Part shown: positions 1 to 11,293 of the stretch, in pieces
Position numbering within the stretch: the stretch's first letter is position 1
Layout: the number at the start of each line of letters is the position of its first letter
Source: Acidobacteriota bacterium
GTDB taxonomy: Bacteria; Acidobacteriota; Terriglobia; Acidiferrales; UBA7541
Length of the DNA stretch: 11,293 nucleotides
Direction of reading: 5' to 3'
Assembly: GCA_003153585.1 (NCBI GenBank)
Contig: PLZZ01000214.1
Span: 10,762 to 22,054 of the forward strand
The notes under the pieces: generated by a model
What the model saw: the letters and a program-made list of their open reading frames with translations, nothing else
Told to the model about the DNA's origin: nothing
Database searches by the model: none
Position numbers and translations under genes: made by a program

Positions 1-498
1 CCCTACATCGGGGCGTTATTCCACGGGCCAAATTACGGAGTCGGCTTTCTAACCGCCGGAATCGTTCTGGCGATTATGGTCGTGCCGTTCATTATTTCTG
101 TCTCGCGGGAAGTTCTTTTGACGGTGCCGCGCGAGCAGCGCGAAGCGGCGCTTGCGATGGGCGCTACGCGATGGGAATCCACCTGGAAAGTGGTGGTCCC
201 GTGGGCTCGCACCGGCATCATGGGTTCCGTGTTTTTGGCACTGGCTCGCGCGCTGGGTGAAACGATGGCCGTCACCATGGTGATAGGTAATGCGCCAACG
301 ATCGCCGCTTCGCTGCTTTCCCCCGGCGATACCATCGCTTCCACCATCGCCAGCCAGTTTACCGAGGCGACCGGAGACTTGTATTTGAGCTCACTGATCG
401 AACTGGGATTGGTGCTCTTCTTGATCACGTTTATTCTGAATGGCCTGGCTCGGATTTTGATTGTCGCCACTGGACGCGGAGGAGGCCGGCCCGCATGA
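1..498 (+). CDS. pstC: Phosphate ABC transporter permease PstC, 5' truncated
   Basis: C-terminal part of PstC, one of the two inner-membrane permeases of the PstSCAB high-affinity phosphate importer. The reading frame is open from base 1 (begins PYIGALFHG), so the true start lies left of the window; the ATG at 76 is internal. The visible part contains the EAA-type cytoplasmic loop that docks onto PstB (REAALAMGATRWES, then the PWARTGI turn), followed by the family segment ALGETMAVTMVIGN and a final membrane helix near the C terminus (ELGLVLFLITFILNGLARI). The TGA stop overlaps the ATG of pstA (ATGA), indicating translational coupling. Identity is firm from the EAA loop together with the pstA-pstB-phoU context. 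PstS is not in the window and may lie upstream. Confidence 0.95.
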   Translation, partial: PYIGALFHGPNYGVGFLTAGIVLAIMVVPFIISVSREVLLTVPREQREAALAMGATRWESTWKVVVPWARTGIMGSVFLALARALGETMAVTMVIGNAPTIAASLLSPGDTIASTIASQFTEATGDLYLSSLIELGLVLFLITFILNGLARILIVATGRGGGRPA

Positions 499-1349
499 GC
501 AATGCGCGTATTATCTGGCGAAAGTCATTAAATTACGTGATGCTGAGCTTGACCGGAATAGCCGCGCTTGGAGTGGTTTCGATTCTGTTCTTTATCCTTG
601 GATATTTGATCTGGAACGGCGGCAAATCGCTGAATTGGAATTTTTTTACGCAACTTCCAAAGCCCGTGGGTGAAACGGGCGGTGGAATGGCCAACGCCAT
701 TGTTGGCAGCCTGAAGCTGCTGATGTTGGCAGCTTTGATGGGCCTCCCGGTAGGATTGCTTACCGGCGTGTATCTTGCGGAGTTCGGGGGCAAAACGTTT
801 TCGTTCGTCGTACGGTACACGACGGATTTGCTGAACGGCGTGCCGTCCATCGTTATAGGCATTTTCGCCTACTCGCTGGTGGTGCTGCCGGTGAAGCATT
901 TCTCCGCGCTGGCCGGCGGGGTAGCACTGGGAATCATGGTGATTCCGATCACGGTGCGTAGCACGGAGGAGTTTCTTAGGGCGGTGCCCGGAAACCTGCG
1001 CGAAGGCGCGATGGCACTGGGAGCCAGCAAGTGGAAGACTATCGTTACCGTGGTGCTGCCCGCCGCGAGCGGCGGCATACTGACCGGAATGCTGCTGGCG
1101 CTCGCGCGCGTTGCCGGGGAAACTGCGCCGCTGCTCTTTACCGCCTTCGGCAACCGCTTTTGGAGCCCAGGTTTCGAACAGCCCACCGCTTCGCTTCCGG
1201 TAATGATATATACATATGCCATCGCGCCGTATGATGATTGGCACAGGCAGGCGTGGGCGGCGGGCTTGGTATTATTGGGCTTGGTGCTGGTTGCAAATCT
1301 GGGTGCCCGTCTTCTACTGAACCGCGGCAGCGCGGTCAGGAGCACGTGA
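495..1349 (+). CDS. pstA: Phosphate ABC transporter permease PstA
   Basis: Second inner-membrane permease of the phosphate importer, 284 residues, the usual PstA length. It has an N-terminal membrane helix (about residues 16-38), a periplasmic stretch, then several further helices. The [16 protein letters not shown] segment at 111-126 is highly characteristic of PstA. The EAA loop lies at about 169-190 ([15 protein letters not shown]...LP), and the following [19 protein letters not shown] matches the phosphate-permease signature. The start ATG overlaps the pstC stop, which fixes it; a purine-rich GGAGG sits at 480-484. The stop is one base before the pstB start. It partners PstC to form the membrane channel energised by PstB. 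Confidence 0.96.
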
Positions 1350-1350
1350 T

Positions 1351-2190
1351 ATGCCGTCGGTTTCCCAAGGCAGCAATGCCACCGCCGCAAGACTCGCTTC
1401 ACAAGTGCGTATGAATGATCCTCGTTCGATGGCTTCGGAAAAGGAGACGCCGGTGCGCTTTCAGATCTCCGACCTGAATTTTTTCTACGGCCCAAAGCAG
1501 GCCATCTTTGGGCTGAATCTGAATATCCCGGTGAATAAGGTGACCGCCTTAATCGGACCTTCGGGATGCGGAAAGTCTACATTCCTGCGCACGTTGAACC
1601 GCATGAACGAGATCATCAGAAACACTCGCGTGGACGGCGAAATCTTGCTCGACGGCCAAGATATACACTCGATGGATGTGGTGAATCTGCGGCGCCGTGT
1701 CGGAATGGTGTTTCAGAGGCCGAATCCTTTTCCGAAGTCGATTTATGAAAACGTGGCGTATGGACTTCGCATCAATGGTTATAAGGGGCGCCTCGACGAA
1801 CTAGTAGAAAGCAGCCTGCACCGCGCGGCGCTTTGGGACGAGGTCAAGGATTACCTTCACAAGTCGGCTTTCGCGCTTTCCGGCGGGCAGCAGCAGAGGC
1901 TGTGTATTGCGCGCGCTCTCGCCGTGAATCCTGAAGTGCTTTTGCTGGACGAACCCTGCTCCGCGCTGGATCCGGTGACGACCGCAAAGATTGAAGAATT
2001 ATTGTTTCAGCTGAAGGATAGCTGCACCATGGCAATCGTTACTCACAACATGCAGCAGGCAGCCCGCGCCAGCGATTTCACCGCCTTCATGCTGGACGGC
2101 AAACTTATCGAACACAGCGAAACATCTAAACTATTTACGACCCCTACCGATCCGCGTACTGAGGCCTACATTACCGGCCGCTTCGGTTAA
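1351..2190 (+). CDS. pstB: Phosphate ABC transporter ATP-binding protein PstB
   Basis: Cytoplasmic ATPase of the Pst phosphate importer, 279 residues. Walker A is GPSGCGKST (69-77), Q-loop Q122 sits inside the PstB hallmark [10 protein letters not shown] (121-130), the ABC signature is LSGGQ (176-180), Walker B is VLLLDEP (196-202) and the switch histidine is H232 in VTHNM. The protein carries about 30 extra N-terminal residues before the nucleotide-binding fold begins ([11 protein letters not shown]). ATG codons at 1411 and 1429 are therefore alternative starts, but AGGAG eight bases before 1351 supports the longer form. It is one base downstream of pstA and co-transcribed with it. Confidence 0.96.
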
Positions 2191-2244
2191 AGTGGATTGG
2201 TTCATCGGGCTATTGCACGCAGAAACGGAAAGGTCTGAGGAAAC

Positions 2245-2910
2245 ATGGAACGACATTTTGAGCGAGACCTCGAAGAACTGAAACAGCGACTGCTTTGGAT
2301 GGGAAGCCTCGCCGAGCGAGCCGTCCATCAGGCCATCCACGCGGTACTGGATGGGGAAGAGCACCTCGCCGAGACCGTTTTGACTGAAGAAGATGCGATT
2401 AACGAGATTCAGATTGAAATCGACGAGCGCGTGCAACGATTGCTGGCCCTGCAGCAGCCCATGGCCGCCGACTTGCGATTCTTGCTTGCGGTCTCACGCA
2501 TCAATGGAGATCTCGAGCGCATCGGAGACCAAGCCGTCAATATCGCGCAGTCAGCAACGCGGATCATGCGCCATCCGCAGGTGAAGCCTTACGTTGATTT
2601 GCCGCGAATGAGCGAGCTGGCTGAGGGGATGGTCCGCGATAGCTTGAATGCCCTGGTGCGAGGAGATATCGAGCTAGCGCACAGCGTGCTTCAGCGCGAT
2701 GACCAGGTGGACCGGCTGCGCGACCAACTCTTTCGCGAGTTGCTTACCTACATGATGGAAAACTCCGCCGTGGTGTTCTCCGCCTTCGAACTTGTTTTGG
2801 TGGCGAAGAACATCGAACGCATCGGGGATCACGCTACAAACATCGCCGAAGACGTGATTTACTTCGTCGCCGGCCGCGACGTACGGCACCCAGCGCTCGA
2901 CCGCCGTTAA
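2245..2910 (+). CDS. phoU: Phosphate transport system regulator PhoU
   Basis: PhoU, 221 residues, the standard length. It is an all-helical cytoplasmic protein with two three-helix repeats that couples the Pst transporter to the PhoR/PhoB phosphate response and restrains phosphate uptake. Each repeat ends in the metal-binding motif: ERIGDQAVNIAQ at 91-102 and ERIGDHATNIAE at 191-202. The start ATG is preceded by GAGG a few bases upstream, and the gene follows pstB by 54 bases, the common pst-operon order. No Pho box or histidine-kinase/regulator pair is visible in the window. No convincing terminator stands in the 83 bases before the convergent STAS gene. Confidence 0.96.
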   Translation: MERHFERDLEELKQRLLWMGSLAERAVHQAIHAVLDGEEHLAETVLTEEDAINEIQIEIDERVQRLLALQQPMAADLRFLLAVSRINGDLERIGDQAVNIAQSATRIMRHPQVKPYVDLPRMSELAEGMVRDSLNALVRGDIELAHSVLQRDDQVDRLRDQLFRELLTYMMENSAVVFSAFELVLVAKNIERIGDHATNIAEDVIYFVAGRDVRHPALDRR

Positions 2911-3531: not shown

Positions 3532-5958
3532 ATGGAAACATCTTCCGCGCTTTTTGAACTCGCGAGCATATCTTTAGCGTGCCGCGATCAAGACACCCTG
3601 CTCAAGACCTTCGCCGCCCGAGTGGGCACTACGCTCGGAGCGCGCGCCGTGCTCGTATGGACGACGAATGGAACAGCAGAGGAACTCCTTTGCCGCATGC
3701 GCTGGACCGAGCCGGGCGAACGCTTGCATCCCACTGAGCTGCCTGTCAACGGAGGAACGCTCGCAATATTGTACCAATCAGCCGCCACCAGGCGTTTGCC
3801 CGCACGCGAAATCGCACCAGAAGATCTTGAGCATCTTGATGAGTTCAGCCGTACACGGGTGAAATCCGCTTTGTATTCATCCCTGCCGGGAGCGCAAAGG
3901 CCGGAAGGCGTAGTCGAGGTTCTCAACAAGCGCACCGGAGACTTCACCGCCGAAGACGCGCACTTCCTGGAAGAAGCATGCCAGCTGGCAGGCCGTGCAC
4001 TGACCAATCTGGGCGCGATTGAACAGGAACGGCAGAGCCAACTCGCCACTCTCGAACGCCTGACCGCGCTATACGACCTGGGCCAGACATTTACGTCAAC
4101 TCTGGAACTGGAAGAGCTTCTCCCCATCGTAGCGGGTAAAATCCGCGACATTTTGGGGGCCGGAGCCTGCAATCTCTGGCTCGCTTCGCCTGACGGACAG
4201 GAACTCAATCTCGCGAAGCAAATCGGCGATGACCCTACGATTGAAGAGGACGCCACCGCGTCATTAAGTGAAGGATTGCTGGCTGAAGTTGCGCAGCAAG
4301 CGAACCCGAAATTAGTCGAAGACCCGAGCGGGGAAGCCGGGCTCGCCGAACGCATTGAAGCTGGCGGGGATTTCGAGCTCCAGTCTTGGATGGCAGCGCC
4401 CCTGCGAAAAGACGACGAGGTTCTCGGTGTCGTCGAGATCATTAATAAGGCGGATGGCACGCTGTTCAATGAAGACGATCTATTTTTCCTCTCCAGTATC
4501 AGCGAACAGGCCGCGGTGGCACTGCACAATGCAAATCTGCTGGAGTCCGAGCGAAAGGTTCACGCCCTCGATGCCCTGCTGAAAATTTCGCAGGAAATTA
4601 CTTCCACTCTGGATCTCGATCACGTTTTGACCACGGTAGTGGCGCAGTCCGCATCAGTCGTGCCGTTTGAGAGTTGCGTTATTGGATTTTACGACCGCGG
4701 GCGCTTCGTCCTGGGGGCCGTCTCCGGAGAAACGGAAGTTCCGAAGACGCGGGAAATGAGCGAGCTGCGCGAACGCATGGAGTGGGTGGCGGAGCAGGAT
4801 AGTCACGTTTCGGCGAATTTTCATGAGGATGGCTGGCAAGTCGAGCCCGCAGAAGCGCACGCCCAAATTGTCTCGTTCCTGGAAGCCCATGAATACCAAG
4901 GCTTTTATGGCTTACCATTGCGCGACGATCAAGGAACGCTCGGCGCAATGATTCTTCTGAGCAAGGAAGCCGATTTTCTATCAGAAAGCCATTTGGAAAC
5001 TCTGGCCATCCTTGCCAGCCAGACTACGGTTGCAATCCGCAACGCCCAGCTTTATCAGCAAGTTCCGCTGGCGAATATTTTGCATCCGTTTGCGCAGAGA
5101 AAGAAAAAGTTCCTTGCCGCTGTGCCGCAGAGCCGCATGATGGAATACGCGCAACGCGCCGGCATCGTGGCCCTGTTTCTGACGATAATCCCATGGCCCA
5201 TGCGCGTTGGCACCGACGCCACTGTGGTCCCATCTGAGCGCCGCACGGTGAGTGCAATCGAGGGCGGAGTTGTAAAACAAGTTTTCGTGCGCGAAGGCGA
5301 TTCAGTGAAACCAGGCCAGGTGCTTGCACAACTGGACGACAGCGAGGATCGCATAAAGCTTATAGAAGCGGACACGGCGTTGTCTCAGGTGCGGCGTGAA
5401 TTAGCCGAAGCCGAATTCAGGAATGACCCCGCAGCGGCGGGGCAGGCTCAAATACGCTCCCAGATGTATTCCGCTGAAGTTGCCCTCGAGCAGGAGCGCA
5501 TAAATGACGCGCGTTTGACCTCACCGATAGCTGGTATTGTCATCACCCCGAAGGTGGAAGAAAAATCCGGGTCCATGATTAAACCCGGGGATAGTTTCTG
5601 CGAGGTAGTATCCCAGGAGCGCATGGCTGCGGAAATGAGCGTCCCCGAAACTGATCTTTCGCTCGTACGTCCGGGCGAAAATGTGTCTCTGAAATTAAAC
5701 GCGTTCCCGACGACGACGTTTGAGGGAACCGTCGATCGCATAGGCGCACAAACTCGAACCGACTCCGGCGACCAATATTTCCTGGTGCGCGCGATATTCG
5801 AAAATGCCGGAGGAAAGGCTCGCAATGGAATGGTCGGGCGAGTGAGAATTCGATCGCGCGGCGGGTGGTTCGACAGCGGATGGTACCCGGTTGGGTACGT
5901 TATTCTGCGTTCGCCGTTCAGATGGTTCTGGCAAAAGCTATGGCCCTGGCTGCCGTAA
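3532..5958 (+). CDS. Triple-GAF sensor fused to a HlyD-type membrane adaptor
   Basis: An 808-residue fusion. Three GAF-like domains occupy roughly residues 5-160, 175-335 and 345-510; each module ends in a similar helix (GRALTNLGAIEQER, AVALHNANLLESER, TVAIRNAQLYQQ). One membrane helix follows (about 543-555, AGIVALFLTIIPWPM), then a HlyD/RND-type adaptor with a split lipoyl-like domain: AIEGGVVKQVFVREGDSVKPG (575-595) and LTSPIAGIVITPKVEEKSG (662-680), around a short coiled coil (about 608-660). A beta-barrel and a tryptophan-rich tail follow. The GAF part should be cytoplasmic and the adaptor periplasmic. The frame is open back to 3238, but that stretch is antisense to the STAS gene and of low quality; ATG 3532 with GGGAGAG just upstream is the likely start. 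It leads a three-gene operon. The GAF ligand is unknown. Confidence 0.88.
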   Translation: METSSALFELASISLACRDQDTLLKTFAARVGTTLGARAVLVWTTNGTAEELLCRMRWTEPGERLHPTELPVNGGTLAILYQSAATRRLPAREIAPEDLEHLDEFSRTRVKSALYSSLPGAQRPEGVVEVLNKRTGDFTAEDAHFLEEACQLAGRALTNLGAIEQERQSQLATLERLTALYDLGQTFTSTLELEELLPIVAGKIRDILGAGACNLWLASPDGQELNLAKQIGDDPTIEEDATASLSEGLLAEVAQQANPKLVEDPSGEAGLAERIEAGGDFELQSWMAAPLRKDDEVLGVVEIINKADGTLFNEDDLFFLSSISEQAAVALHNANLLESERKVHALDALLKISQEITSTLDLDHVLTTVVAQSASVVPFESCVIGFYDRGRFVLGAVSGETEVPKTREMSELRERMEWVAEQDSHVSANFHEDGWQVEPAEAHAQIVSFLEAHEYQGFYGLPLRDDQGTLGAMILLSKEADFLSESHLETLAILASQTTVAIRNAQLYQQVPLANILHPFAQRKKKFLAAVPQSRMMEYAQRAGIVALFLTIIPWPMRVGTDATVVPSERRTVSAIEGGVVKQVFVREGDSVKPGQVLAQLDDSEDRIKLIEADTALSQVRRELAEAEFRNDPAAAGQAQIRSQMYSAEVALEQERINDARLTSPIAGIVITPKVEEKSGSMIKPGDSFCEVVSQERMAAEMSVPETDLSLVRPGENVSLKLNAFPTTTFEGTVDRIGAQTRTDSGDQYFLVRAIFENAGGKARNGMVGRVRIRSRGGWFDSGWYPVGYVILRSPFRWFWQKLWPWLP

Positions 5959-5977: not shown

Positions 5978-6901
5978 ATGAAACGCGCCGCGTTGATTTT
6001 AATCGCTGCAATGGCGGTTGTCGGAAATGGTTGCGACAACTCGTCTGTGGCTTCCGGCCCCAAGAATGCGCCGCTATCCAACGCAGCTTCGTCTCAGGCT
6101 CCCGCGCCAAGCGCAGTTTCCGCAAAAGGGACCGAGACGGGAGATATTCTAAGCGTGCTGACAGTGGAACATCAGGTGGATCTCTCCTCGCAGCGCGATG
6201 GCACGGTGACGTCCGTTGCCAAAGATGAAGGCAGCGTGGTCAAGACCGGCGAAATTCTCGGCCGGCTTGACGACCGAAGTCTGCAACAGGAGCTCATCAA
6301 GGCGCGCGATGATCTGAAGGTGACTCAGAACAACTTGCAATACAAAGCAGCGGAACTAAAGGCTAAGGGCGCAGCCTACCGGCGTCAGCAGCAGTTGCGG
6401 GAAGCGGGATTGTCAAGTCAGGCCGATCTCGAAGCCGCGGAATTCGAAGCGAAAGGGGCTGAGTACGACATGCATGGATATGAGGCCTTGGTCGAAAGCG
6501 GCCAAGCCGAGATCCACCGGCTCGAAATTGAAATCGACCAGACCGTTTTGCGCGCTCCGTTCTCGGGCGTCGTGGCGCGACGCTATGTTCGAGAAGGGCA
6601 AGCTGTCGTCAAAGGTGACAAGTGTTTTCGAGTGAGCCAGCTGTATCCACTGCAGGTACAGTTTCAAATTTCCGAATTGGCAACCCCGCACCCCGCACTC
6701 GGCGCGCCGGTTAACCTCGTCCTCTTGGGTGGTACCAATCGCCCGCTCAACGCGAAAGTGGTGAAGGTCAGTCCTACCGTGGATCCATCCAGCGATAGTT
6801 ACGATGTGGTAGCACAGCTCACCGGTTCCGGACTTTCGGATCTACGTCCCGGAATGGCCGTGCGCGTCGGATGGCCCGGAACCTCGCCATCAAAGCCGTA
6901 G
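5978..6901 (+). CDS. HlyD/RND-type periplasmic adaptor, probable lipoprotein
   Basis: A 307-residue periplasmic adaptor (membrane fusion protein family). The N terminus is a signal peptide, MKRAALILIAAMAVVG, followed by NGC; Cys-19 could be lipidated, although GNGC is a poor lipobox. A low-complexity Ser/Ala/Pro linker runs to about 50. The lipoyl half-motifs are SQRDGTVTSVAKDEGSVVK (71-89) and LRAPFSGVVARRYVREGQ (191-208), flanking a helical hairpin (about 100-188) rich in Glu, Lys and Ala. A beta-barrel region closes with LRPGMAVRVGWPG. The start at 5978 is chosen for its signal peptide and the AGAGG about ten bases upstream; an in-frame ATG at 5891 would overlap the preceding gene. Such adaptors normally link an inner-membrane pump to an outer-membrane channel, neither of which is in the window. 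Confidence 0.9.
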   Translation: MKRAALILIAAMAVVGNGCDNSSVASGPKNAPLSNAASSQAPAPSAVSAKGTETGDILSVLTVEHQVDLSSQRDGTVTSVAKDEGSVVKTGEILGRLDDRSLQQELIKARDDLKVTQNNLQYKAAELKAKGAAYRRQQQLREAGLSSQADLEAAEFEAKGAEYDMHGYEALVESGQAEIHRLEIEIDQTVLRAPFSGVVARRYVREGQAVVKGDKCFRVSQLYPLQVQFQISELATPHPALGAPVNLVLLGGTNRPLNAKVVKVSPTVDPSSDSYDVVAQLTGSGLSDLRPGMAVRVGWPGTSPSKP

Positions 6902-6913
6902 GGGATCTCGACC

Positions 6914-9061
6914 ATGCGTTTCGGTCCCACCAGCCTCCAAGTCTCCAGCGTCCTCGCGAAAGGCCTTAAACGCCCTAAACTGCGCACCGATCTGCGCATC
7001 AGCGAACAAACGGTAGCGGGCGAAATCAGTTACGTGGTCAAAAACCGCGAGACAAACTCCTACAACCGGTATGGGGCCACGGAATATCAACTGCTGTCCC
7101 TTTGCGACGGAACGCATACGGCTGCCGAAATCGCGCAGGTCATGTCTGAAAAAGATCCCGATTTGACAACGAACGAGGCCGATGTGCTCGACTTCCTGGA
7201 CTCGGTGGATGCCACCATGTGGGAGCGATCGATCGGAGAAAAAAACCTGGCGGTCCTCGAGCGCATTCGGGACGAACGGAAGGGTCGGATCGAGCAATCG
7301 AGTGTGCTGTATATAAGCTTTAAAGCCTGGGATCCGGACAAGACACTCGGGAAAATGGATCGGTATCTCGGATGGATGTTCACCAAGGGCTTTGTCATCT
7401 TCTCTCTGTTCATATTTGTCGTCGCGGTTTATCTGCTCGCCGGGGATTGGACGCGCGTGCAGCAGGACACGGAGGCCTTGTATGATTTTGCGGGTAAAAG
7501 TGCCTACGACATCTGGATCTTTTGGATACTCCTCCTGGGTTTGGGTGCCATACACGAATTTGGTCACGGTCTGACTTGCAAACACTATGGCGGCGATGTT
7601 CATCAAATGGGCTTTTTGCTCATCTATTTCACTCCCGCCTTTTTTACTGATACCACAGACATCCTTCTGTTCCAGACCGGAGCTCCCCGGCAGTGGGTTA
7701 TCTTCGCGGGTATTTGGATTGAACTGGTGATCTGCGGCCTGGCTGCATTGGTGTGGCATTTCACCGCACCCGGTTCGCTGACGAATGACTTTTTTTACAA
7801 AATGATGCTGCTGAGCGGCATTCAGGGTGCGCTCTTGAACCTGAATCCGTTAGTCAAAGCCGATGGATACTATGCGTTGTCACAATTTCTCAACATGGAT
7901 AACCTGCGTGAAGATTCTTTCGGCTACCTGCGGGCCTGGGTGCAAAAGTACATTTTTCGGCATGACATAGACTTGCCGTCCTCCAGCAAGCGCCAGCGCC
8001 GTGTTTTCTTCCTGTTTGGAATCTCAGCCATCATCTACAGCATGTCGCTTCTAATTATCATGCTTTTGTTTGTTAAGAACATACTCGTAAGCCAAATGGG
8101 CGACGAATGGGGATATCTGGCAACCCTTGGCGTCGTTTATTTCTTTGCAAGAACGAGTTTGCGAAAGGCTTTGCCCGTGGCACGGGCTTGGATGCGGGAC
8201 AAGAAGGAGAAATATATGGCCTGGAAAGTGACTCGTGCGCAGCAAGTTGGCGCTCTTGGACTGGTTCTGCTGTTTCTGTTGCCTCCGTTTTCTTCAAAGG
8301 TCTCCACCGATTTAGTGCTCGAGCCCGGAAAGGATGTGCGCGTTCGGGCCGCAGTGGACGGCAGAATTCAAAGAGTGTTTGTCCGCGAGGGCGATGAAGT
8401 AAAAGCGGGCCAAATGTTGGCGATCTTGGAGAATCCCGACATAATTGCCGACGCGCAATCGCTGACGCAACGGTTAGCGCTGGCCAGCAGTAATCTCCGC
8501 AATAATCAGGATCGCTCAGACTTCAGCCAAGCGGCGCAAGTGGTTCGCGATCGAGGGCGGCTTGAGCAAGAGTTGTCCGTAGCGCAGAAAAGGGTCCAGA
8601 ACCTCGAAATCCGAGCTCCCATGGACGGGGTCATCGTTACTTCCAATGTGGACCAGGAAGCCGGCGAGTATCTTTCGGCGGGGGACGAATTTGCCCGGGT
8701 GGTGGACCGAAGCACCATGAAGGCGCGTATTCTTGTGCAGGACCGGGAGCTTCCGGACGTTCAACCCGGCGCGCCTGCCAAGGTGAAGGTGCTCCCATTT
8801 CCATACCGGACTTACTCTGGCCACGTGGATAAAATACTTCCGGCCGCGGCGCTGGATCACCCAGTCGCCCAGACTGAGAGGCTGACGCGTTTAGGGCAAG
8901 AGCTAGCGAACTTCGTTGCGGTTGAGATGGAAATTCCAAACCCCGATGGGTCTCTGCGGGAAGGCATGACCGGAAAAGCCAAAATTTCCGGGCCCCGGCA
9001 TTCCTTAGCCTGGCAGACCGGCCAAGCGACATGGCGCTGGGTGCGTTCGCAGTTTTGGTAA
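6914..9061 (+). CDS. PqqD-like domain / M50 membrane metalloprotease / HlyD adaptor fusion
   Basis: A 715-residue three-part protein. Residues about 20-105 form a PqqD-like (RiPP-recognition-type) winged helix: ISYVVKNRETNSYNRYGATEYQLLSLCDGTHT and the following helices. The membrane region has helices near 160-176, 200-213, 260-285, 295-310, 365-390 and 400-412. It carries the M50 (site-2 protease) zinc motif HEFGH (214-218) and the second motif NPLVKADGYY (311-320), whose Asp-317 should be the third zinc ligand, so the active site looks intact. After a helix at 445-458 comes a HlyD module: VDGRIQRVFVREGDEVKAG (481-499), RAPMDGVIVTSNVDQEAGE (567-585) and a beta-barrel. It starts 12 bases after the adaptor gene, with AGGGGA upstream. 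The architecture resembles 'putative peptide zinc metalloprotease' proteins related to YydH of the Bacillus epipeptide system. The substrate is inferred to be a small peptide. Confidence 0.9.
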   Translation: MRFGPTSLQVSSVLAKGLKRPKLRTDLRISEQTVAGEISYVVKNRETNSYNRYGATEYQLLSLCDGTHTAAEIAQVMSEKDPDLTTNEADVLDFLDSVDATMWERSIGEKNLAVLERIRDERKGRIEQSSVLYISFKAWDPDKTLGKMDRYLGWMFTKGFVIFSLFIFVVAVYLLAGDWTRVQQDTEALYDFAGKSAYDIWIFWILLLGLGAIHEFGHGLTCKHYGGDVHQMGFLLIYFTPAFFTDTTDILLFQTGAPRQWVIFAGIWIELVICGLAALVWHFTAPGSLTNDFFYKMMLLSGIQGALLNLNPLVKADGYYALSQFLNMDNLREDSFGYLRAWVQKYIFRHDIDLPSSSKRQRRVFFLFGISAIIYSMSLLIIMLLFVKNILVSQMGDEWGYLATLGVVYFFARTSLRKALPVARAWMRDKKEKYMAWKVTRAQQVGALGLVLLFLLPPFSSKVSTDLVLEPGKDVRVRAAVDGRIQRVFVREGDEVKAGQMLAILENPDIIADAQSLTQRLALASSNLRNNQDRSDFSQAAQVVRDRGRLEQELSVAQKRVQNLEIRAPMDGVIVTSNVDQEAGEYLSAGDEFARVVDRSTMKARILVQDRELPDVQPGAPAKVKVLPFPYRTYSGHVDKILPAAALDHPVAQTERLTRLGQELANFVAVEMEIPNPDGSLREGMTGKAKISGPRHSLAWQTGQATWRWVRSQFW

Positions 9062-9168: not shown

Positions 9169-9624
9169 TCAGCTCAAAATGTATCTGAATGTGCCACGGC
9201 ATCGTCGAGCGCCGCAATGGCAGGGAACGCGCTGAAGCTTGACCGGGTAGCAATAATCCGCCGTCAATTCTTCGCCAGCGCATATTTTCCGGCGGCTGAA
9301 GAAGAGCAAGTGGTTGCGAACACAGCGCCAGAGCAGATTAGGATTGCACGAGTGGTTGATGAACTGGGCACCGCTCCCACCAGAGCTCCCGTCCAGAAAC
9401 CACCGGTCATTCATCTTCGCGAGGTAAGTGTCTTGGGGAAATTCTATATCCCAAACCTGCTCGTAACTGAGGCGTTTTCCGGTGTATTCGATGACGCGGC
9501 GATCTCGAGGAATGTCCTCGAGCGCAAACACTCCATAGCGATGAAGCGAAGAGGGCCCTATTCGAAGATCATAGTACGCGGTTTTCGGGTTGATCTGGAG
9601 CTTCTTCGGGCTCGGCGCTTTCAT
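9169..9624 (-). CDS. SET-domain protein lysine methyltransferase-like
   Basis: A 151-residue stand-alone SET protein. Visible motifs are the N-terminal G-V-F-A-L-E-D-I (31-38) with EYTGKRLS, the cofactor-site motif FINHSCNPN (88-96), AGEELTADYCY (116-126) holding the expected catalytic tyrosine, and a post-SET zinc knuckle C-H-C-x4-C (Cys-135, 137, 142) that would pair with Cys-93. The family transfers methyl groups from S-adenosylmethionine to protein lysines. The frame reaches a TTG at 9651, but ATG 9624 has GAGG seven bases upstream and gives the usual N terminus. It lies on the same strand as, and downstream of, the two lysine-rich peptide genes, beyond the terminator of the nearer one, so it may be read by leak-through or have its own promoter. 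Its substrate is unknown. The convergent gap to the M50 gene (9062-9168) shows no clear terminator. Confidence 0.88.
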   Translation of the reverse strand: MKAPSPKKLQINPKTAYYDLRIGPSSLHRYGVFALEDIPRDRRVIEYTGKRLSYEQVWDIEFPQDTYLAKMNDRWFLDGSSGGSGAQFINHSCNPNLLWRCVRNHLLFFSRRKICAGEELTADYCYPVKLQRVPCHCGARRCRGTFRYILS

Positions 9625-9711
9625 TTCGCATCCTCGAAGGACCGCTGCCAATCAGAAGAGCGGCCAAGCATCTAAGTCGTTTAAGTGGTGCGATATTCCC
9701 CGACAACAAAG

Positions 9712-9745
9712 AAAAAAGGGCTGCCGTTCCTGGGACGGCAGCCCT
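9712..9745 (-). terminator. Intrinsic terminator of the downstream peptide gene
   Basis: A perfect 12-bp stem, AAGGGCTGCCGT / ACGGCAGCCCTT with a 6-base loop (9716-9727 pairing with 9734-9745). On the - strand it is followed by six T (9717-9712, the inner two also pairing in the stem) and then CTTT. The T-run lies only on the - strand side, so it ends transcripts of the peptide gene at 9805-9888. Confidence 0.92.
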
Positions 9746-9754
9746 TGGTAGTGC

Positions 9755-9804: not shown

Positions 9805-9888
9805 TTATGGACGGCCGATTCCGACCTTGGTCAACGGCTTCACTGATCCGAGCTTCTTTCCCTTTTTCACTGTCTTTGCTTTTGCCAT
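9805..9888 (-). CDS. Tiny lysine-rich peptide, paralogue 1 (27 aa)
   Basis: A 27-codon gene on the - strand (ATG 9888-9886, TAA 9807-9805). The peptide opens MAKAKTVKKGKKLG and ends in KPLTKVGIGRP; eight of 27 residues are Lys and none is acidic or Cys. It aligns over its length with the 26-residue peptide at 10324-10404: 17 residues are identical, sharing MAK, KT, KK, KL, KPLT and VGxGR. Of the 16 identical internal residues, 14 use different synonymous codons, which supports selection on the protein. AAGGAG (9904-9899) lies ten bases before the ATG; a sigma-54-type promoter and an intrinsic terminator flank the gene. I do not recognise the family. There is no hydrophobic signal sequence. 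It could be a peptide precursor (leader plus C-terminal core), a cationic antimicrobial or a signal; a precursor fits the nearby PqqD/M50 protein best. Confidence 0.82.
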   Translation of the reverse strand: MAKAKTVKKGKKLGSVKPLTKVGIGRP

Positions 9889-9898
9889 GGTCTTGAGT

Positions 9899-9904
9899 CT
9901 CCTT
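9899..9904 (-). promoter_or_regulatory. Shine-Dalgarno of peptide paralogue 1
   Basis: AAGGAG on the - strand, ten bases before the ATG at 9888. It decides the frame of this very short gene against a 72-codon overlapping frame (10006-9788) that lacks a comparable site. Confidence 0.85.
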
Positions 9905-9942
9905 AGAATTTTTTGTTTTCCTTCTGACTACACTGCTACCAG

Positions 9943-9958
9943 TGCAATCCGCGCGCCA
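9943..9958 (-). promoter_or_regulatory. Sigma-54 (-24/-12) promoter of peptide paralogue 1
   Basis: Read on the - strand this is TGGCGCGCGGATTGCA, matching the consensus TGGCACGN4TTGCA at all but one fixed position (A to G at the fifth base), with exact GG-to-GC spacing. The implied transcript start is near 9932, giving a leader of about 44 bases before the ATG. A matching element sits before the paralogue, and the next gene upstream encodes a sigma-54 activator. Confidence 0.85.
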
Positions 9959-10048
9959 AACTCTCGTCGGACCACCCTTGAGCACGTATGCCTGATTTGA
10001 AAGCACTTATGGCCGGGAAGGAGCAGGATGCCAAGACCCCTGTTATCG

Positions 10049-10056
10049 AATGTGTT
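10049..10056. promoter_or_regulatory. Candidate activator-binding word, copy 1 (AATGTGTT)
   Basis: AATGTGTT begins 106 bases upstream of the first base of the 9943-9958 promoter element. The same word begins 105 bases from the equivalent point of the 10453-10468 promoter. Flanking bases also partly agree (an AA-TT-T pattern to its right). The distance is typical of sigma-54 enhancer sites. Suggestive only. Confidence 0.4.
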
Positions 10057-10217
10057 TAATTTTTTATGATCGAGTTGAATATTTCAATATCCAGGTAAAC
10101 TAGCTAGGCCAAAAAGAACCTCACGGACGATTTCACACAGCGAGGAATGGGCGGCTCATGAGGGCATCGCAGCATAAACTAAGGGGACGAACTTTGGAGG
10201 GGAGCGCTTCGCGCAAT

Positions 10218-10249
10218 AAAAAAAGGCTGCCAGCCTTTCGGCGGCAGCC
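10218..10249 (-). terminator. Intrinsic terminator of the upstream peptide gene
   Basis: On the - strand, GGCTGCC-GCC-GAAA-GGC-T-GGCAGCC forms a ten-pair stem with one bulged T and a GAAA tetraloop, followed by seven T (10224-10218). The GGGCTGCCG start of the stem matches the other peptide's terminator, suggesting the terminators were duplicated with the genes. Confidence 0.92.
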
Positions 10250-10313
10250 CTGTGATTCAGTAATAATAGTAATTTCAGTGCGTCTGCAAATGAACAGTCA
10301 CACCTGTCACGCG

Positions 10314-10324
10314 AACTGCTAACT
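10314..10324. repeat. 11-bp direct repeat, copy 2 (AACTGCTAACT)
   Basis: Second copy of the word at 9755-9765. Here it abuts the stop codon of peptide paralogue 2. Confidence 0.5.
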
Positions 10325-10404
10325 TATCCCCTACCCACGCCAACAATCGTCAGGGGCTTCGTTGCTTCCAGCTTCGTTGCTTTCTTCAAGGTTTTCTTGG
10401 CCAC
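10324..10404 (-). CDS. Tiny lysine-rich peptide, paralogue 2 (26 aa, GTG start)
   Basis: A 26-codon gene on the - strand (GTG 10404-10402, TAA 10326-10324). The peptide opens MAKKTLKKATKLEATK and ends in KPLTIVGVGRG; six residues are Lys and one is Glu. It is the paralogue of the 27-residue peptide at 9805-9888, with one residue missing after MAK. The most conserved part is the C-terminal KPLTxVG[IV]GR; the middle varies. GGAGG (10416-10412) lies seven bases before the GTG, a sigma-54 promoter at 10468-10453 and an intrinsic terminator at 10249-10218 bracket the gene, and a perfect 18-bp palindrome covers the predicted transcript start. I do not recognise the family. The role is inferred as for its paralogue: possible substrate of the PqqD/M50/HlyD protein and possible SET target. 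Confidence 0.82.
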   Translation of the reverse strand: MAKKTLKKATKLEATKPLTIVGVGRG

Positions 10405-10425: not shown

Positions 10426-10443
10426 GAGTCGCCTAGGCGACTC
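10426..10443. promoter_or_regulatory. Perfect 18-bp palindrome at the transcript start of peptide paralogue 2
   Basis: GAGTCGCCTAGGCGACTC is its own reverse complement. It covers the position expected for the sigma-54 transcript start (near 10442) and the first bases of the leader. It could be an operator or a leader hairpin (loop-less as written, so at most 7-8 pairs in RNA). The other peptide gene has no equivalent, so it may be specific to this copy. Confidence 0.55.
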
Positions 10444-10557: not shown

Positions 10558-10565
10558 AATGTGTT
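10558..10565. promoter_or_regulatory. Candidate activator-binding word, copy 2 (AATGTGTT)
   Basis: Second copy of the word at 10049-10056, starting 105 bases upstream of the first base of the 10453-10468 promoter element. It is followed by GAAATTCTCAC. The near-identical spacing at both promoters is the main argument. Confidence 0.4.
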
Positions 10566-10586
10566 GAAATTCTCACCACCCCGCTG

Positions 10587-10618
10587 AAAAAGTAAGCCTG
10601 TAACTACAGGCTGTACTT
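10587..10618 (-). terminator. Probable terminator at the end of the sigma-54 activator gene
   Basis: On the - strand AAGTA-C-AGCCTGT-AGTT-ACAGGCT-TACTT followed by TTT forms a 12-pair stem with one bulge. The stem includes the last codons and the TAG stop of the regulator. It would separate the regulator's transcript from the sigma-54-driven peptide genes. The T-run is short. Confidence 0.6.
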
Positions 10619-11293
10619 ACGACACAAGTAGTTGAGCCGGTTGCGGTCCACTCCCAGCAAGCGCGCTGCATCCGCCTTCCCTTGTTTGGCCTGCTCCAGA
10701 GCTTCCTCAACCCAGCGGCGCTCGAAAGCCTCCATTTCCTTGGCCAAATTAATCCCGCCGGAGGGTAGCCGGAAGCGGTTGCGCGAATCTCGTCCGGAGG
10801 CTTGCACGATTTCGCTGGGGAGGTCCTTCAGCGAGATCACATCTCCGTCGGTCATGATAACGAGCCTTTGAATGGCGTTTTGGAGTTCCCGTACGTTACC
10901 AGGCCATGGATAGCGCTTTAGCGCCAACATGGCGTCATCAGCGATGCGCTTTGGTGGGAAACTATTGGCAGCGCAATACACACTGACGAAGTAGTCCGTG
11001 AGGACCGGTATATCCTCCATTCTCTCGCGCAGAGAAGGCACAAAGATGGGCACCACGTGTATCCGGTAATAGAGATCTTCTCGAAACCGTTCCTCGCGAA
11101 CCATCTCCTCCAGATCTTCGTTCGTCGCGCTAATCAGGCGAAAATCCACGCGAATAGATTTCTTGCCTCCTAATCGAGTGAAGGAACGGTCCTCTAGGAC
11201 GCGCAGAAGCTTGCTCTGGAGCGCGGGCGTAAGTGTCGCAATTTCATCAAGAAACAGCGTGCCTTGGTGGGCCATTTCAACGCGGCCTTCCTT
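10604..11293 (-). CDS. Sigma-54-dependent enhancer-binding regulator, N terminus outside window
   Basis: The last 229 residues of an NtrC-family activator; the frame is open to the window edge, so the start and sensory domain are not seen. Within the fragment: Walker B GTLFLDEI (11-18), sensor [10 protein letters not shown] (53-61), the arginine-finger region FREDLYYRI (70-78), [11 protein letters not shown] (86-96), and sensor [14 protein letters not shown] (130-141). A Fis-type helix-turn-helix closes the protein (about 207-229, [23 protein letters not shown]). Walker A and the GAFTGA loop must lie beyond the edge. Such proteins use ATP to open promoter complexes held by sigma-54. It is on the same strand as, and directly upstream of, two sigma-54-type promoters, so it is the obvious activator for the peptide genes. 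Whether it responds through a phosphorylated receiver or a ligand domain cannot be told here. Confidence 0.95.

Follow-up and report, generated by a model that had tools for sequence, protein, structure and literature searches.

What is the role of two tiny lysine-rich peptides whose genes lie close to a gene for an M50 protease, and are they a peculiarity of one genome or members of a wider system? The genes are found in an 11,293-nucleotide stretch of an Acidobacteriota bacterium genome (assembly GCA_003153585.1, contig PLZZ01000214.1, positions 10,762 to 22,054, forward strand), here called the window, and had been described in an earlier note as a pair of paralogues. The answer that appears moderately probable is that they belong to a dispersed sigma-54 regulon of leader peptides, which are cleaved and exported by a machine that joins an RRE domain, an M50 site-2 protease and an HlyD adaptor (RRE-M50-HlyD).

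Conserved leaders and variable tails

The peptide genes and the hairpins that a terminator scan places behind them are:

9805..9888, minus strand: leader peptide 1, MAKAKTVKKGKKLGSVKPLTKVGIGRP, 27 amino acids; type A leader MAKAKTVKKGKKLGSVKPL, tail TKVGIGRP
10324..10404, minus strand: leader peptide 2, (V/M)AKKTLKKATKLEATKPLTIVGVGRG, 26 amino acids, GTG start; type B leader MAKKTLKKATKLEATKPL, tail TIVGVGRG
9716..9746, minus strand: terminator-like hairpin 3' of peptide 1
10221..10239, minus strand: terminator-like hairpin 3' of peptide 2

Aligned with one gap, the two peptides have 16 identical residues after the start, 14 of which are written with different codons. Both genes stop at TAA and carry a Shine-Dalgarno sequence directly 5' (AAGGAG and GGAGG), and between 9640 and 10600 the two strands hold four hairpins against a shuffle mean of 1.3. 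The sequences, Shine-Dalgarno sites, terminators and codon differences that the earlier note reported were all re-found. The two peptides are indeed related, but they are not a pair: peptide 1 as query in the window's own genome retrieves peptide 2 at E=0.003, and the family profile finds four copies there, the window's two and two on contig 26. The fourth is interrupted by unread bases, and the genome total is at least four.

Is the family found elsewhere? With peptide 1 as query, 18 of 101 genomes give a match at E<=10. That the likeness exceeds chance is also seen with the family profile, which has 162 matches at E<=0.01 in a large protein database; the 120 listed were all inspected individually. 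Neither window peptide matches Pfam or NCBIfam and four leader strings are absent from the literature text searched, in agreement with the notion that the family has no name; nor was a published description of the system found among titles and abstract beginnings, where coverage of subscription journals is thin. The recognisable family is narrow, since peptides occur in 11 of 250 genomes of a class sample and, at E<=0.001, in one of 396 genomes of a phylum-wide sample, namely the window's own. As many as 10 copies per genome are seen, at scattered sites.

There are two main leader types, A (MAKAKPVKKGKKLGSVKPL) and B (MAKKTLKKSKKLEATKPL), and the window holds one of each; farther loci have related leaders, e.g. 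KKGKKLxxKKEIxKAQTL. Judged by the sequences, it is the basic N-terminal half, up to KPL, that is conserved and forms a leader of about 18-19 residues, and it is the tail that varies. The statistics that establish this split draw on 177 distinct sequences, 141 of which fit the leader pattern (36 were dropped) and yield 135 distinct tails. Mean pairwise identity over the last 14 leader residues is 72%, a figure raised by the way in which members were found, through their leader, versus 13% over the first six tail residues (121 tails of at least six residues; composition predicts 7%), which is free of that inflation. The leader/core layout suggested beforehand is borne out by these figures. The motif KPLTxVG[IV]GR has to be given up as a family hallmark: KPL closes the conserved leader, and TxVGxGR is variable tail, common to both window peptides and near relatives and replaced by other tails in most other members. 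Most of the family would escape the proposed search pattern K-x-L-x(3)-K-P-L-T-x-V-G-x-G-R.

Is there selection on the peptide? Between the window and a related locus (L032), peptide 1 has three synonymous and no nonsynonymous codon changes in the 19 codons of the leader, and one synonymous and four nonsynonymous changes in the seven of the tail. This points to purifying selection on the leader, as had been surmised for the peptide as a whole. Peptide 2, compared with locus L031, is less clear-cut, with an unchanged tail and two nonsynonymous leader codons, including the GTG/ATG start. Cys is nearly absent from the tails (0.1%), which share no invariant acceptor residue and mostly end in R, K or G. 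Net charge is negative in four of the 135 distinct tails, which bears on the idea that the tails may be cationic effectors.

DNA motifs upstream of the peptide genes

How might such scattered genes be expressed? Each had been credited with its own promoter. That part stands, but not as a sigma-70 promoter, as both genes have a sigma-54 box that scores 11/12. A search for sigma-70 promoters gave three weak sites (0.8 in shuffles), none well placed for the peptide genes. The regulatory features are:

9943..9958, minus strand: sigma-54 box of peptide 1, TGGCGCGCGGATTGCA, 11/12, starting 70 bases before the start codon
10453..10468, minus strand: sigma-54 box of peptide 2, TGGCACTCCTTTTGCA, 11/12, starting 64 bases before the start codon
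10074..10088, minus strand: putative enhancer of peptide 1, ATTGAAATATTCAAC, one mismatch to GTTGAAN3TTCAAC
10563..10577, minus strand: weaker enhancer-like site of peptide 2, GGTGAGAATTTCAAC, two mismatches, one half-site intact
10604..11293, minus strand: sigma-54 activator (AAA+, Fis-type helix-turn-helix), N-terminus lost at the contig end

In an initial set of 63 peptide upstream regions, 71% have a box of at least 9/12, against 4% of shuffles. With 24 more peptides, picked by rule and eye, the set comes to 87, and boxes of this quality precede 58 of the 87 peptide genes as against 18 of 295 control open reading frames of the same loci and five of 87 on the opposite strand. The position is consistent, with 47 of the 58 boxes beginning 56-80 bases before the start codon. 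When sequences are collapsed to 61 clusters, a box is present in 38, and it is found both at loci adjoining the M50 gene (35/46) and at orphan loci (23/41, score >=9).

A search for dyads in the DNA farther 5' brought up TTGA-N5-TCAA, which is present in 24 of 62 regions and in none of 292 controls. The fuller palindrome GTTGAA-N3-TTCAAC, with up to two mismatches, lies upstream of 42 of the 87 peptide genes and five of 292 controls; the count of 42 is no independent test, because the motif was derived from the same regions, and the controls are independent. Distances from enhancer to box are clustered at 98-141 bases (37 regions). Distinct distance values show helical phasing (R=0.62 at 10.5 bp, naive chance 0.0002), which is suggestive only, since the loci are related. 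Within the window itself, two or more enhancer-like sites arise in 16 of 200 shuffles. In the four loci examined for it, the GAF-HlyD gene described below lacks an enhancer of this kind. Genome-wide, on one strand and with one mismatch, the palindrome is not specific: it occurs 138 times versus 37 for the reversed pattern in 11 genomes with the M50 gene, and 46 times versus 19 in nine genomes without it.

Elements expected of a sigma-54 regulon are present at the sequence level: a -24 GG/-12 GC promoter, an upstream enhancer, an activator and rpoN, the last in 18 of 20 genus genomes and reading in two pieces in the window's genome. Intact copies of the activator in relatives have a response-regulator receiver domain at the N-terminus. 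The peptide genes are apparently switched on by a common two-part DNA signal, and the finding of a sigma-54 box together with the GTTGAA-N3-TTCAAC palindrome on peptide genes is new. A separate perfect palindrome, GAGTCGCCTAGGCGACTC (10426-10443), follows the sigma-54 box of peptide 2 and precedes its start codon, a position within the presumed 5' untranslated region.

The RRE-M50-HlyD protein as presumed partner

Which protein would act on the leaders? The window offers a candidate and two companions:

6914..9061, plus strand: RRE (PqqD-like), M50 site-2 protease and HlyD adaptor in one protein (profile matches, fold prediction)
5978..6901, plus strand: HlyD-type adaptor with lipoprotein-like N-terminus (Pfam; ATG from the sequence, open reading frame tool start 5891)
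3532..5958, plus strand: triple GAF domain fused to HlyD adaptor (Pfam; ATG from the sequence, open reading frame tool start 3238)

Fold prediction, with predicted models compared by VIA-align 2, supports the RRE, protease and HlyD domains of the first protein, which is presumed to be leader reader, leader peptidase and part of the exporter. The daptide protease model aligns with the N-terminal 412 residues of this protein at E=1.5e-53 (182.3 bits, under the cut-off of 300), and the YydH/LiaK protease model gives it 39.6 bits (cut-off 225). The fusion of three GAF domains to HlyD (3532-5958) is unusual and recurs next to the M50 gene in relatives.

Do peptides and M50 gene occur together? In the genus, all 11 genomes that have the M50 gene also have peptides and none of the nine without it does, in line with the suggested co-occurrence with PqqD-M50-HlyD genes; these and the following counts come from relatives that are not independent, and from a profile built mostly from M50-carrying genomes. 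At the family level, 35 of 89 genomes have an M50 match at E<=1e-10, and the scores are bimodal, with 22 genomes at 518-981 bits and the others at or below 273. Peptides at E<=0.01 are present in 20 of the 89, and 18 of these are among the 22. Four high-scoring genomes lack profile-found peptides: in G026 and G038 contigs stop soon past the M50 gene, and in G056 and G030 looser rules recover leader-like peptides. Peptides without an M50 gene occur in two genomes, G036 (79% complete) and G124 (82% complete). In the class sample, the 18 M50 genomes include all 11 peptide genomes, and 24 of 29 M50 loci at or above 440 bits have leader-like peptides close by.

A mechanism can be proposed on this basis. 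A response-regulator-type activator, encoded beside the peptides, would bind the GTTGAA-N3-TTCAAC enhancer and turn on each peptide gene at its own -24/-12 promoter. The RRE domain would recognise the basic leader ending in KPL, the M50 core would remove it, and the HlyD adaptors, together with the GAF-HlyD and lipoprotein HlyD proteins, would export the short variable tail, which might act in signalling or antagonism. Leader, reader-protease-exporter, activator and DNA signal form a testable unit. If true, RRE-guided peptide processing would be linked to HlyD-type export free of ABC transporters and tied to a sigma-54 regulon of the PEP-CTERM kind, in acidobacteria that abound in peat and soil. 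Leader profile, box and palindrome would then make a simple finder for hundreds of secreted peptides missed by annotation.

How does this compare with known systems? Double-glycine-leader bacteriocins and class II microcins are short peptides with leader-directed export and an HlyD-type adaptor, as is presumed here; unlike them, the peptides on direct reading have no GG (GA/GS) site, and no C39-peptidase ABC transporter is among the scanned window proteins. Daptides were discovered via an RRE and site-2 protease architecture (PMC10036551), and for EpeP both cleavage and export have been proposed (PMC10885120); their DapP/YydH-EpeP loci share with the present ones an RRE N-terminal to an intramembrane M50 protease, and a short precursor with conserved leader and variable C-terminus (PMC10036551, PMC10885120). 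They differ in that here HlyD is fused to the protease, with GAF-HlyD and lipoprotein HlyD as partners, the precursor genes are many, dispersed and under sigma-54, and no daptide or radical-SAM enzyme is in the window. A daptide oxidative decarboxylase, aminotransferase or methyltransferase is absent among the Pfam-scanned window proteins, no genome-wide search having been made, and the tail ends differ from the C-terminal Thr core of daptides. Likewise the radical-SAM epimerase of epipeptides (YydF/EpeX) is not among the window proteins scanned, and the protease falls below the model cut-off.

The regulatory layout resembles another system. The PEP-CTERM/EpsH regulon has many single-gene substrates, one sorting signal and one processing system, and its genes carry a palindrome-like motif upstream of a -24/-12 site under a sigma-54 response regulator (PrsK-PrsR; PMC1569441). 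The PEP-CTERM signal is a C-terminal domain on large EpsH-processed proteins (PMC1569441), whereas here it would be an N-terminal leader on tiny peptides, with M50-HlyD; the window peptides have no PEP-CTERM domain by Pfam or NCBIfam. What differs from daptides, EpeP and PEP-CTERM is the HlyD fusion, the dispersed hypervariable tails, and that no modification enzyme recurs beside the loci (small clusters being unannotated).

Might the peptides be full precursors of ribosomally synthesized and post-translationally modified peptides, with a tail altered by an enzyme encoded elsewhere and then released by the RRE-protease? In the broad sense they share two features of that class, a gene-encoded precursor with conserved leader and variable core and, by predicted fold only, a partner RRE. 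The daptide-like architecture and the protease-model match favour this, and with many peptide genes located at a distance from the machine, modification enzymes could be remote too. It is nonetheless unlikely, as tails have hardly any Cys and no invariant acceptor, and in 46 loci no neighbour cluster recurs in more than seven apart from HlyD/M50, activator-like and STAS genes (smaller clusters carry no annotation). A Pearlin-like scaffold was rejected because the tail is gene-encoded and differs among members.

Less likely again is that the peptides are intracellular regulators of the membrane machine or the activator, the leader being the working part and the tail unconstrained. Conservation does sit in the leader, near relatives do differ at nonsynonymous tail sites and the activator gene adjoins the peptide genes; up to 10 scattered copies with their own promoters, repeat or Hcp-piece tails in some relatives, and an exporter-like partner fit substrates better. 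That the peptides are ordinary small basic proteins or remnants, near the M50 gene through shared neighbourhood ancestry, is very improbable: related genomes are non-independent and lysine-rich short frames turn up easily, but orphan copies on other contigs have the same boxes, the leader is under purifying selection at the codon level and presence of peptides tracks the M50 gene.

Repeat tails, Hcp pieces and neighbouring genes

If the leader peptides are exported substrates, what can a tail be? A tentative extension, less likely than not, is that the leader is a portable export signal of an ABC-free Gram-negative route, in which an intramembrane protease is fused to a periplasmic adaptor, with open-ended cargo. 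This cargo would range from short cationic tails and tandem oligopeptides to pentapeptide repeats and to N-terminal, middle and C-terminal parts of the Hcp fold, each on its own leader peptide. Tandem repeats make up some tails in more distant relatives. A peptide of L077 (9028-9327, minus strand) has a tandem LQRGT tail that weakly resembles HetL, a pentapeptide-repeat protein (E=0.0005); other repeat tails are LQRAS in L076, SLRGVSTLRGIN in L083 and TLKPSF in L081. LQRG-type repeats follow the leader in L077, in L076 (5874-6035, plus strand) and in L078 (6317-6499, minus strand), with the sigma-54 box in the same position.

In a few relatives the tails correspond to three distinct regions (N-terminal, middle and C-terminal) of the profile of Hcp, a type VI secretion system component; the window peptides have no Hcp match. 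The loci are:

L162 1408-1563 and 1651-1797, plus strand: adjacent Hcp-piece leader peptides
L098 6338-6571, L168 1396-1650 and L152 4113-4247, plus strand: further Hcp-piece leader peptides
L100 8973-9110 and 9225-9347, plus strand: a pair that resembles the L162 pair, without Pfam match

Among ten hand-picked peptides, five match the Hcp profile, one of them over the curated cut-off. In the adjacent L162 pair, one peptide aligns with profile positions 2-21 (27.1 bits, cut-off 23.5) and the other with 34-68 (E=0.037), and three other tails match at 38-71, 39-66 and 106-129. The genus profile search reached the L098, L162 and L168 frames independently. An enhancer without mismatch and a box scoring 9 precede both the L098 gene and the first of the two in L162. 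When peptides were instead chosen by the profile, without bias, none of 122 matched PF05638 at E<=1, so Hcp tails are a rare, minority theme. Of three tails compared with solved structures, one matched Hcp (E=0.037), another an unrelated entry (E=1.7) and the third nothing, and the longest Hcp-tailed peptide as query finds only five near copies. Read-through or frameshift of full Hcp genes was considered and rejected: downstream frames of eight peptides (seven loci) never become Hcp. Used as database queries, the N-terminal-piece peptides retrieved ten entries; one of them, P0128, is labelled an Hcp component by its source. P0135, a short database protein, joins a bacteriocin-like double-glycine leader to an Hcp start. 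More than one leader system may carry Hcp pieces. Why are they found on some leaders? They are perhaps decoys against, or parts of, Hcp-based systems. Full-length Hcp-like proteins occur in genus genomes G018, G001, G019 and G009, three of which lack the M50 gene, and by eye the N-terminus resembles a secretion signal in G018, G009 and G001.

Other genes near the peptides deserve mention. Two proteins adjoin orphan peptides in two genomes (L099 2853-4271, L102 6846-8399), possibly by chance; by a sequence motif, their N-termini resemble FAD-dependent monooxygenases. In the window, the M50 gene and the lysine-rich peptide genes are separated by one for a SET-domain (lysine methyltransferase-like) protein (9169-9651, minus strand); a comparable frame occupies this place in L031 and none was seen in L032 or L033. 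Upstream of the machine, window positions 1-2910 hold phosphate-uptake genes (PstC/PstA/PstB/PhoU-like by eye), an order kept in L031 and L032.
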